Source of the DNA: a virus
DNA: 22,548 nucleotides
Virus record (IMG/VR): IMGVR_UViG_3300037191_001647
Coordinates: 1 to 22,548 of that record
Strand: one strand, 5' to 3'
Positions within the stretch are counted from its first letter, which is position 1. Each line of letters begins with the position of its first letter. The notes under the pieces were generated by a model, which was not told the origin of the DNA, ran no database searches, and worked only from the letters and a program-made list of their open reading frames with translations. Below, piece after piece: positions 34 through 13,473 of the stretch. The translations under genes and the position numbers were made by a program.

Positions 34-1644
34 ATGAGCCAATTCAAAGAAACCCATCAGCCGTGTGTAGCGTGTGGCAGCAAAGATGCCCGCTCCACGT
101 ACCAGTCCGGGGTGAGCATTTGTTTCTCATGTGGAGACATCGCCGCCCCGGACGGTGCAAAGTCAGCGCAGGTCAAGGGCGTGGCCCTGATTAACGACGT
201 GCACATCATAAGCTTGTCAAAGCGTAGCCTGAGTTTCGACACGTGCAAGCGGTACGGGTACGGTGTGGGTCAGCAGCACCACGTGGGCAGTGTACAGGTC
301 GCGCCCTACTACGACCCCAAGACAGGACAGCTGGTCGCTCAAAAACTTCGTACTGCCGATAAGAAATTCACCATCACTGGTGACGCAAAGCGCATGGGCC
401 TATTCGGCATGCACCTATGTCGAACCGGCGGCAAGATGATTACCATCACCGAGGGTGAGATTGACGCCATGTCCGTGTCCCAAGCTATGGGTAACACTTG
501 GCCTGCCGTTTCCCTACCGAATGGGGGCGGTAACCTGCAAGCACTGCAGGACAACCTAGACTTTCTTGAGTCGTACGACAAGGTGAACCTGTGTTTCGAC
601 AACGACGAAGTCGGTCAGAAAGCACTCGACGCAGCCCTTAATCTGTTCTCTCCGGGCAAGGCACACGTGGTAAACTTGGGTGACTACAAAGATGCCAACG
701 ACATGCTGCAGGACGGCAAACAGAAAGAACTAAGACAGGCCGTATGGGAAGCCAAGGAGTGGAGGCCTGATGGCATCGTGGACCTGAGTGAAATGCGCGA
801 GGAGATTGAAGCTCCGCTGGTGACGGGGCACCCGTACCCTTGGCCAAAGCTCAACAGCATGCTCTACGGAATGCACTCGTCGCAACTCATTACGTGGACT
901 GCGGGAACCGGCGCAGGCAAGACAGCCATCATCAGCGAGCTTGAGCATTGGATGCTTGTGAACGAGCGGATGAAGGTAGGCATCATTCATCTTGAGGAAG
1001 GCGTGGTGCGCTCGAGCCGCCGAATCATCGGCATCGACATGAACAAGCCCATCCACCTACCTGACGCAACGTACACAAAGGAAGAGTTCGATGAACATTG
1101 GGGTGCCACTATTGGCAGTGGTCGCTGCTTTGCTTACAACCATTTTGGTAGCCTCGATTCTGATACGCTACTTAACCGGATTCGGTATCTTGTCAAAGCA
1201 AGAGATTGTCCAGTTGTTGTACTCGACCACGTGTCTATGGTTGTCAGCGGCTCTGATTTGGACGTTGACGAGAGACGCCTATTAGACCGCACCATGACCA
1301 TGCTAAAGTCTCTGACCGAGGAGACCGGAGTCATCTTGCACGTCATCAGCCACTTAAGTAGAACACAAGGAAAATCCCACGAGGAAGGGGGCCAGGTTTC
1401 CTTAAGCAACTTGCGTGGAACCCAAGCCATCGCACAGCTTAGCGACACGGTCATTGCGGCCGAGCGCAACCAGCAAGCAGAGGATGAACTTGAGCGCAAC
1501 ACCACACAGTTGCGTATCCTGAAGAACAGGTACGCAGGCATCACTGGTCCGGCAGACAGGCTTGTGTATCACCACGACACAGGACGCATGATTCTAGCTG
1601 CTGATGTTGAGTCGCCAAGGCCCGACATGGGAGACGAATTCTAA
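34..1644 (+). CDS. DNA primase-helicase, T7 gp4-like
   Basis: Bifunctional replisome protein that lays RNA primers and unwinds DNA ahead of the phage polymerase. The 536 residues show the T7 gp4 order. An N-terminal zinc ribbon has C11, C14, C30 and C33, with the same spacing as T7. A TOPRIM primase domain has the TEGEID motif with E140, and D189 and D191 in FDND. A RecA-like DnaB-type helicase follows, with Walker A GTGAGKT at 291-297 (K296) and Walker B ending in D398. The protein ends in an acidic tail with a terminal phenylalanine (MGDEF); in T7 gp4 the equivalent tail contacts the DNA polymerase. Length is close to T7 gp4 (566). The ATG at 34 has a strong Shine-Dalgarno inside a small hairpin. 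A candidate second gene is nested at 1091-1285 in another frame; there the T-ending codons of this gene rise sharply. Confidence 0.97.
   Translation: MSQFKETHQPCVACGSKDARSTYQSGVSICFSCGDIAAPDGAKSAQVKGVALINDVHIISLSKRSLSFDTCKRYGYGVGQQHHVGSVQVAPYYDPKTGQLVAQKLRTADKKFTITGDAKRMGLFGMHLCRTGGKMITITEGEIDAMSVSQAMGNTWPAVSLPNGGGNLQALQDNLDFLESYDKVNLCFDNDEVGQKALDAALNLFSPGKAHVVNLGDYKDANDMLQDGKQKELRQAVWEAKEWRPDGIVDLSEMREEIEAPLVTGHPYPWPKLNSMLYGMHSSQLITWTAGTGAGKTAIISELEHWMLVNERMKVGIIHLEEGVVRSSRRIIGIDMNKPIHLPDATYTKEEFDEHWGATIGSGRCFAYNHFGSLDSDTLLNRIRYLVKARDCPVVVLDHVSMVVSGSDLDVDERRLLDRTMTMLKSLTEETGVILHVISHLSRTQGKSHEEGGQVSLSNLRGTQAIAQLSDTVIAAERNQQAEDELERNTTQLRILKNRYAGITGPADRLVYHHDTGRMILAADVESPRPDMGDEF
1091..1285 (+). 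CDS. Candidate nested two-TM membrane protein inside the helicase gene
   Basis: An ATG-started 64-codon ORF lies wholly within the helicase gene, shifted by +1. AAGGAAGAG ends four bases before the ATG, a usable Shine-Dalgarno. The product has two hydrophobic stretches, about residues 5-27 and 43-61, joined by a short loop containing Lys-Gln-Glu, and a short charged tail (TRDAY). This is the general shape of a class II holin. Over this span 28 of 65 helicase codons end in T, against about 13 of 100 in the 100 codons upstream and about 4 of 40 downstream (counted by eye). The helicase wobble base is the second codon base of the nested frame, where T means a hydrophobic residue. This fits selection on the nested frame, but a chance T-rich patch would give the same ORF. 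A holin role is inference only. Confidence 0.42.
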   Translation: MNIGVPLLAVVAALLTTILVASILIRYLTGFGILSKQEIVQLLYSTTCLWLSAALIWTLTRDAY

Positions 1645-8977: not shown

Positions 8978-9324
8978 TGGGCGCCGTTAAGAAGGTATTC
9001 AGCGCAATTACAGGGGCAAAAAGCAAAAATAATGCAGCGCAGCAAGCACAGGCAGCGCAGCAAGCACAGGCAGCACAGGTAGCACAGGCATCTGCTGACG
9101 CCAAGGCATCTGCTGCTGCAACCGCGGCAAAGGCAAAGTCAGACCTAGATGCGCGTTCGGCTGCAGACCGTGAGGCCAAGCGCGCCCAGACCACAACGGC
9201 CAGCGGAGTAAGCAGTGGAGTAAACAACAGCCGAGTGACCGGAAGGACGGGCCGCAGTGGACTTGTAAGTCGTAGAGGCGAAGATGCAGGCGCAACACGA
9301 AGCGGTGTATCAGTACCAAGGTGA
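8977..9324 (+). CDS. Small virion-type protein, T7 gp7.3-like (second copy, Ala/Gln-rich)
   Basis: The 115-residue product starts MGAVKKVFSAITGAK, like the previous gene's MGFLSKIFGGG. An Ala/Gln-rich helical repeat region follows (residues about 20-75, coiled-coil-like), encoded partly by an 18-base tandem repeat. The end is TGRSGLVSRRGEDAG...RSGVSVPR. The C-terminal pattern GRS-x-LV-x-x-RR...G-x-x-R-x-GVS is shared with the preceding gene and resembles the end of T7 gp7.3. The start overlaps the previous stop (TAATG). A tail-assembly or ejected-protein role is inferred from T7 position and motif. Confidence 0.72.
   Translation: MGAVKKVFSAITGAKSKNNAAQQAQAAQQAQAAQVAQASADAKASAAATAAKAKSDLDARSAADREAKRAQTTTASGVSSGVNNSRVTGRTGRSGLVSRRGEDAGATRSGVSVPR
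9034..9087. repeat. 18-base tandem repeat, three copies
   Basis: The unit GCAGCGCAGCAAGCACAG at 9034-9051 is repeated perfectly at 9052-9069 and imperfectly at 9070-9087. It encodes AAQQAQ units in the second gp7.3-like gene. Copy number could vary between relatives by slippage. Confidence 0.9.
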
Positions 9325-11415: not shown

Positions 11416-12303
11416 ATGGTAGATTCAGTAACAGACCCGGGTGACATTCAAGTCCCCGCAACAACGGCGGCAGGGTACGGCTCTCTTCACATTGCAACGA
11501 CGCAAGAAGATGCCGCATCAGCGCGCGTATCGGCGGGCGCCGCAACCCCGCAGTCACTTGGGGTTGACCAAGCTTCATTCGATAAGTTCTTCAACGACGG
11601 TGAGTTCGACTACGCCAGCTACGGCAAGGAACAAGCGTTCAAGGCCAAAGGCAAAACCGAAGGAGCCGACGCCACAGGAGGTGAACCGGCCGCAACCAAG
11701 GATGGTGATACCCAAGCGCCCGATACAGCTGCAGCGCAGGATGCGGTATCTAATGCAGGACTGAACTGGGACACGCTATCGCAGTCTGTTTCCGAGAACG
11801 GGGACATCACCAAGGAAGACCGTGCTGCGCTCGTTAAGATTGGCATTCCGAATAACATCATCGACACACACATCAATGCTGTACACGGTCAAACGCAGAA
11901 CCTTATAGACACTGTCATCTCAGGCATCGGCGGACAAGCCACGTTCGACGCCGTGTTCGATGCGCTACAAGAACATCCGATGGAGTTGCGCAACAAGATT
12001 GACGGCCTGTTGCAAGACCCGGATACGCGAGAGGCAGGTATTAACCTAGCCTTCCATAAGTCGGGCGTACAGCGTCCGGTAGCTGATGGAGCCAGAGCAC
12101 AGGTAGTTCCGGTGACTGGCGCACGTGCATCCAGAAGTTCACCGGCCCAACAAGGGCTTGGGTACAAAACTTTCGAAGAGCAGGCAGCTGCTCAATCCGA
12201 CCCGCGTTACAAGAATGACGCGGCTTACCGCGGTGCTGTCATGGCTAAGATTGCTGTGTCTCAGTACAACGTCAACCCGAGGGCACACCGAGGCGGTCTG
12301 TGA
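11416..12303 (+). CDS. Scaffolding protein, T7 gp9-like
   Basis: Internal assembly scaffold for the procapsid, lying between portal and capsid as in T7. The 295 residues are acidic and Ala/Thr/Asp-rich with low-complexity N-terminal and central parts. FDKFFNDGEFDYASYGKE lies at about residues 55-72, and a helical core DLDP-like region FDAVFDALQEHPMELRNKIDGLLQDPDTR at about 177-205. The C-terminus, YKTFEEQAAAQSDPRYKNDAAYRGAVMAKIAVS, matches the conserved SDPRY..D..YR end of T7-type scaffolds, which in such scaffolds is the capsid-contact region. Translation starts behind a Shine-Dalgarno hairpin. Confidence 0.9.
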   Translation: MVDSVTDPGDIQVPATTAAGYGSLHIATTQEDAASARVSAGAATPQSLGVDQASFDKFFNDGEFDYASYGKEQAFKAKGKTEGADATGGEPAATKDGDTQAPDTAAAQDAVSNAGLNWDTLSQSVSENGDITKEDRAALVKIGIPNNIIDTHINAVHGQTQNLIDTVISGIGGQATFDAVFDALQEHPMELRNKIDGLLQDPDTREAGINLAFHKSGVQRPVADGARAQVVPVTGARASRSSPAQQGLGYKTFEEQAAAQSDPRYKNDAAYRGAVMAKIAVSQYNVNPRAHRGGL

Positions 12304-12968: not shown

Positions 12969-13473
12969 CCCGACCAAGCACACGAAGTTCTCCGTAAAGG
13001 AACTTTCTGGCACGGTGCCAGAGGTTGCTCTTGTTGAAGCCGGCGCCATCCTGGCTGAGTCTATTCCAGTCACCATGACCAACGTCGCCAACAGCATCGA
13101 CTTTTCGTACAGCGCAACAGCTGAAGACAACGGCACGGCCGGAGCCCTCGATGGTCAGCCCGGTGTAATCTACGCGGGGCCTTCTGGTATGGCCGTGCGT
13201 GTGGCCATCGCAAACGTGGACACCATTGAGCATGCCTCAACCCCTCCTGAAGCGACCGACACAGCAGCGTTGACCCTGTGGCGCAACTCAGAAGCAGTGG
13301 GGTACGGAGACGAAGGATTCAACGCTCATGTAAGCGAAATTGCCGTCGAGAACAGCCTCGACACAATCGTTGCGGGACTAAACGAAGGTGACGTTCTGCG
13401 CGTTGGCTTTACGTTCACGGGTGAAGTGAACGGCGACCTAGACGTTGCGCCCGGTGTGATGACCATCACATAA
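12961..13473 (+). CDS. Predicted beta-rich virion protein, unknown
   Basis: 170 residues, rich in Val, Thr, Ala and Gly, with alternating hydrophobic strands and few lysines. The second half (DTAALTLWRNSEAVGYGDEGFNAHVSEIAVEN, then DTIVAGLNEGDVLRVGFTFTGEV) has the strand order and the AGLNEGDVLRV turn seen in C1q/TNF-like jelly-roll domains. The first half is not recognised. Immediate upstream position to the capsid gene makes a head decoration or head-fibre protein plausible; this is inference. AAGGAA precedes the ATG, which lies eight bases inside the oxygenase gene. The stop codon forms the edge of a 16-base dyad. Confidence 0.7.
   Translation: MPNPTKHTKFSVKELSGTVPEVALVEAGAILAESIPVTMTNVANSIDFSYSATAEDNGTAGALDGQPGVIYAGPSGMAVRVAIANVDTIEHASTPPEATDTAALTLWRNSEAVGYGDEGFNAHVSEIAVENSLDTIVAGLNEGDVLRVGFTFTGEVNGDLDVAPGVMTIT

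Follow-up and report, generated by a model that had tools for sequence, protein, structure and literature searches.

Selection on a reading frame nested in the primase/helicase gene of Roseobacter phages, and a candidate overlapping membrane-protein gene at the same site in an uncultured T7-like phage

The window analysed here, a 22,548-base piece of an uncultured T7-like phage, carries within its primase/helicase gene a second open reading frame (ORF; positions 1091-1285, plus strand) that we judge, with a probability of roughly 0.55, to be a genuine small overlapping gene. The argument runs through another group of phages: from the substitutions between their genomes, an overlapping membrane-protein gene at this helicase site is strongly supported in Roseobacter phages, and since the window carries an ORF of like anatomy, an overlap gene is probable there as well. 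Phage annotation pipelines skip overlapping genes.

The enclosing gene is a T7-type primase/helicase gene (34-1644, plus strand; PHROG 239 DNA primase/helicase, E = 4e-172; Pfam DnaB_C, Toprim_2 and Helic-prim_T7_N). The nested ORF overlaps the part of it that encodes Walker B and has the structure given in a preliminary description of this DNA, namely an ATG, 64 codons and a TAG stop in the +1 frame relative to the helicase; its start falls at helicase codon 352 (window numbering), and its product reads MNIGVPLLAVVAALLTTILVASILIRYLTGFGILSKQEIVQLLYSTTCLWLSAALIWTLTRDAY. Upstream stands a Shine–Dalgarno-like sequence, AAAGGAAGAG (1077-1086, plus strand), with 8 nt from the end of AAGGA to the ATG. 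The product is hydrophobic overall. Of the two hydrophobic segments originally claimed, the first (1103-1174, plus strand; approximately residues 5-28) is strong, with a Kyte–Doolittle 19-residue maximum of 2.84 from residue 7, whereas the second (1205-1261, plus strand; approximately residues 39-57) is marginal at 1.51, below 1.6, and appears as a helix in the AlphaFold model. That model, made from the single sequence, predicts a two-helix hairpin (helices 4-31 and 36-63, pLDDT 79). The product has no match in Pfam, PHROGs or phage tblastn, and a Foldseek search with the model returned only matches with E > 0.7, none of them informative. Directly 3' of the helicase gene, at 1680-1901, lies a stand-alone 73-aa membrane protein with one clear transmembrane (TM) segment, a GAGGAG Shine–Dalgarno sequence and no family match. 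This one-TM neighbour qualifies the earlier statement that the window holds no stand-alone two-TM gene, an absence that carries little weight because the window is a 22.5-kb fragment.

The two frames are one base apart, so that the third base of each helicase codon is the second base of a nested codon. T occupies the helicase third base in 28 of 66 codons in the ORF span, compared with 12 of 100 upstream and 3 of 40 (7.5%) downstream, a recount that bears out the surplus first described (28 of 65, 13 of 100 and 4 of 40). By codon count, the patch comprises 28 T-ending codons of 65 (1072-1266, plus strand), and the richest 65-codon stretch of third-base T among the window genes examined starts at 1072. 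Gene-wide synonymous shuffles attained a 65-codon maximum of at least 28 in 0.04% of cases, and 28 T-ending codons at the ORF's own location arose in 0 of 5,000 synonymous shuffles. Within a null survey of 253 non-redundant phage genes, a third-base T patch with p <= 0.001 was found in three, the window helicase among them, and a nested ATG ORF of at least 60 aa with a mean hydropathy of at least 1.0 was found in five (about 2%), the window's included. The T patch and the hydrophobic nested ORF are each, taken singly, uncommon rather than unique; two other phage genes (L148 and L316) have equally strong T-wobble patches (scan p = 0 of 1,000). At this helicase site, a third-base T surplus with p < 0.01 is present in 5 of the 24 helicases that carry the ORF compared with 1 of the 77 that lack it, the Roseobacter phage entries in that count being related to one another, and the T surplus here tracks the presence of the ORF across lineages. 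An ORF with a Shine–Dalgarno sequence at the site fixed by the Roseobacter phages occurs in 0.5% of synonymous shuffles of the window helicase, whether gene-wide or local (a probability of 0.005 that takes its position from the roseophage ORF), in 0.6% when local codon composition is retained, and in 0 of 4,000 gene-wide shuffles when a hydropathy of at least 0.9 is also required; the alternate frame is in this sense open beyond chance, which is one mark of an overlapping gene.

Roseobacter phage CRP-125 supplied the strongest nested ORF of the null survey; it starts at window codon 348 behind GAAGGAG-TAGACG-ATG (internal ATG at record position 9064; nested product MILSSLLSMTPLAVVVF...). A nested ORF is present at the same helicase site in nine of nine CRP phages (CRP-125, 171, 113, 227, 114, 361, 118, 804 and 403), encoding 62-70 aa with a hydropathy of 0.9-1.4, raised third-base T and excellent Shine–Dalgarno sequences such as GAAGGAG-N6-ATG. 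All nine records (OR4207xx), which come from isolated phages, annotate DNA primase only and leave the nested ORF unannotated, and the main text of the paper describing the CRP genomes mentions neither overlapping genes nor holins (PMC11092137). Codons 347-416 of the primase gene (L390-L397 and L404; window numbering) form, in the eight distinct CRP phages, the sole long internal stop-free stretch in the +1 frame, and the +2 frame is without any. The CRP and window ORFs agree in helicase position (start codon 348 or 349 compared with 352), the +1 frame, the Shine–Dalgarno sequence followed by ATG, the length, the hydrophobic product with its predicted hairpin, and the T-wobble surplus; they differ in that the nested products have no detectable similarity, and the helicases are only about 45% identical. 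Codon-aligned BLOSUM scores between window and roseophage nested products were not above those of synonymous shuffles (p = 0.59 and 0.88), and common descent is therefore unproven.

Synonymous-site conservation, which the preliminary description had proposed as a check on the overlap, was measured in eight distinct CRP phages (CRP-125/171/227/114/361/118/804/403) as third-base identity given amino-acid identity. The mean z is 3.25 over codons 348-412, with a peak exactly over the ORF, and z values well away from these codons lie between about -1 and +1; the conservation is thus confined to the ORF. The pair CRP-171/804 illustrates the effect, with 71% amino-acid identity and 89% third-base identity compared with 44% expected. 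In several pairs, wobble changes are also scarcer than changes at codon positions one and two, as in CRP-114/361 (ratio 0.93 vs 3.44, p = 0.003) and CRP-118/804 (0.71 vs 1.64, p = 0.009); no such depletion was seen in CRP-125/171. The negative controls gave the expected values: a z of -0.5 for the L257/L258 clade, near 0 for a 75-member clade and 0.5 overall for a 41-member clade. Recombination does not account for the CRP pattern of high third-base identity combined with low amino-acid identity, because a recombined tract lowers changes at all codon positions together.

The window's own lineage offers no relative near enough for a selection test on ORF 1091-1285. Searches for close relatives of the helicase found none, the 80 IMG/VR loci being about 39-45% identical and the best isolates about 45%, and a search with the 1210-aa internal protein likewise found no close relatives. 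The nearer helicases are L164, L262, L171 and L357 (54-62% identical), L367 (56-58%), L083 (about 51%) and the partial L268. Checked for stops, the nested frame of these relatives gave a divided answer: it is open in L164, L262 and L367, with a GAGGAG Shine–Dalgarno sequence, an ATG at helicase codon 352 or 353 and, in L164, a stop at exactly the homologous place to the window's, and it is broken by stops in L171, L268, L357 and L083, as also in T7, Pasto, Lau218 and S-CBP2. The original proposal of an overprinted membrane-protein gene thus gains from the conservation in the CRP phages and the same anatomy in the window, and loses by the stops in near relatives. The window's third-base match to L164, L262 and L367 is 0.30-0.32 in the span, lower than the 0.38-0.49 found elsewhere, and its nested product is no more similar to the sister-clade products than synonymous shuffles are. 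Among these three relatives themselves, three-way third-base identity rises sharply over codons 349-415 (27 of 47, compared with 41 of 250 elsewhere). Conditional on amino-acid identity the mean z is 1.9, with codon-position ratios that are those of an ordinary, less diverged gene, and as a sign of nested-frame constraint this value is suggestive only. Neither this rise nor the one seen between L313 and L284 and in similar pairs was accepted as direct proof of overlap, because comparable tracts are spread over the full length of the gene in other pairs and, for the three relatives, because L262 and L367 had been retrieved via motifs inside the region and the codon-position ratios are normal.

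The 41-member clade also has the nested frame open, with an overall z of 0.5 and no overall constraint, so that an open frame by itself proves little; for want of overall constraint the clade was rejected as a set of further carriers. Within it, a few pairs, those with L309, stand out in third-base conservation: over codons 350-414, L309 compared with L350, L281 and L288 combines high third-base identity, low amino-acid identity and an open nested frame, as in the roseophages, and these four are possible additional carriers of an overlap under selection. The antisense -1 frame, open in L164, L262 and L367, was set aside because the helicase wobble bases are its own third positions. The DNA polymerase gene of the sister clade contains, towards its N-terminal end, another open +1 frame that encodes hydrophobic segments (L169:9962-10285, G004, and the homologous region of L367 and L262); the window lacks it.

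The main rival to an overlapping gene is a patch of foreign, T-rich codon usage, for instance a short recombination tract from a phage rich in T at wobble positions. T at the wobbles over the hydrophobic strands near Walker B would keep the +1 frame open and hydrophobic, and the ORF would be a by-product without function; we give this an appreciable chance, clearly short of even. The codon usage of the span is indeed foreign to the gene (log-likelihood -93.6, compared with a mean of -71.7 and a minimum of -82.5 for other segments), and sites that distinguish the window's own clade from the distant L257/L258 clade match the latter in 21 of 40 cases at codons 340-400 compared with 64 of 310 elsewhere (p = 4e-5). 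That clade has the start sequence AAGGAAGAGTT[CT]GATG in common with the window, its nested frame is partly decayed, and its z of -0.5 indicates no constraint; in addition, mosaic tracts are frequent in the helicase gene and over-represented at codons 360-400, and a comparison of 85 helicases shows this span to have the +1 frame that is most open and also most hydrophobic. However, the tree of codons 340-400 sets the window beside L257/L258 weakly (79/78) and does not reject the window's own clade (AU p = 0.44); with such tree support, we do not accept recombination from the L257/L258 clade as proven. A foreign patch also leaves unexplained both the rarity of an ORF with a Shine–Dalgarno sequence when local codon composition is kept and the pattern in the roseophages, and an imported tract could itself bring a working gene. 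As a separate observation, IMG/VR relatives (for example L313/L284, L270/L365 and L350/L309) show too many tracts at codons 360-400 in which the third bases are nearly identical although the helicases otherwise diverge, a surplus that the retrieval motifs may inflate; these codons are possibly a recombination hot spot.

Much less probable is that the wobble bias stems from another element, such as an internal promoter, an RNA structure or a translational pause, to which the ORF is incidental. The T7 internal promoter phi4c (L387, T7 12671), placed by alignment on the LDH motif, would fall at about window codon 342, a short way 5' of the ORF, but the constrained stretch in the roseophages matches a stop-free frame bounded by a Shine–Dalgarno sequence with ATG and by a stop. 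Least probable, and very unlikely, is that an ordinary helicase gene clustered its T-ending codons at random. The survey's yield of hydrophobic nested ORFs (5 of 253 genes) and the choice of the most striking one by the preliminary description lend this some plausibility; against it stand the p <= 0.0004 of the T patch in the window helicase and the agreement of position, Shine–Dalgarno sequence and ATG with an independently supported overlapping gene.

If the ORF is an overlapping gene, as we favour, we infer that in the window virus ribosomes would start within the helicase mRNA at AAGGA-N8-ATG and that the 64-residue product would insert in the inner membrane as a helical hairpin, with the same bases specifying the helicase's Walker B region. 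Since each helicase wobble position doubles as the middle position of a nested codon, keeping the nested protein hydrophobic would require T there and disfavour A and G, giving rise to the T patch. The product would then be a small protein of the inner membrane that is expressed together with the replication genes and perhaps influences membrane integrity or the timing of lysis; an accessory effect of this kind is the likeliest role, in which we have low confidence. More broadly, shifting the reading of the hydrophobic helicase strands by one base yields a frame that is itself hydrophobic and easy to open, and for this reason we propose, tentatively and at slightly less than even odds, that the Walker B region of T7-type primase/helicases is a recurrent cradle of overprinted two-helix membrane proteins, widespread genes that annotation has missed. 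Equally tentative is the corollary that unrelated-looking products arose or diverged at one start position in the Roseobacter phages, the window lineage and the sister clade. If real, a membrane gene maintained by selection within the replicative helicase gene of cultured marine phages would couple replication to a membrane function through a single mRNA. It could also bear on the lysis activities of T7-like phages beyond the known holin, evidence of which has been reported for T7 (PMC8365609). The overlap is directly testable because the roseophages are cultured.

Among known systems, class II holins resemble the window ORF in being small, with two putative TM helices (the second marginal here), but the ORF has no family or informative fold match to them and any lysis role is putative, so the class II holin label of the preliminary description was not upheld. 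The nested ORF of CRP-125 lies two genes after the lysozyme gene, and a role there as sole holin is unlikely because a separate protein of that phage (L403:34172-34576), annotated as hypothetical, matches the 3TM holin family PF11351 (GTA_holin_3TM) and the holin family PHROG 3427. A search for PF11351 in relatives gave no match anywhere, the controls likewise remaining without a match, so that its outcome carries no information. T7 genes 4.1 and 4.2 are also small ORFs overlapping the gene 4 primase/helicase, at other positions (12988-13326, crossing the 3' end of the gene, and 11635-11757, near its 5' end), and at the site of the window's nested ORF the T7 frame contains stops. The sgl genes of ssRNA phages encode short membrane proteins, have Shine–Dalgarno sequences and are often nested within the replicase gene in its +1 frame; they have arisen de novo repeatedly, show little sequence similarity and have had their function proven by lysis assays (PMC7693330), whereas the window ORF, from a dsDNA phage, is known from sequence. 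The embedded Rz/Rz1 spanins likewise place a membrane-associated gene within another gene of a dsDNA phage (PMC5295617, PMC6139136), with the differences that the outer gene also serves lysis and that Rz1 is an outer-membrane lipoprotein rather than a helical hairpin.
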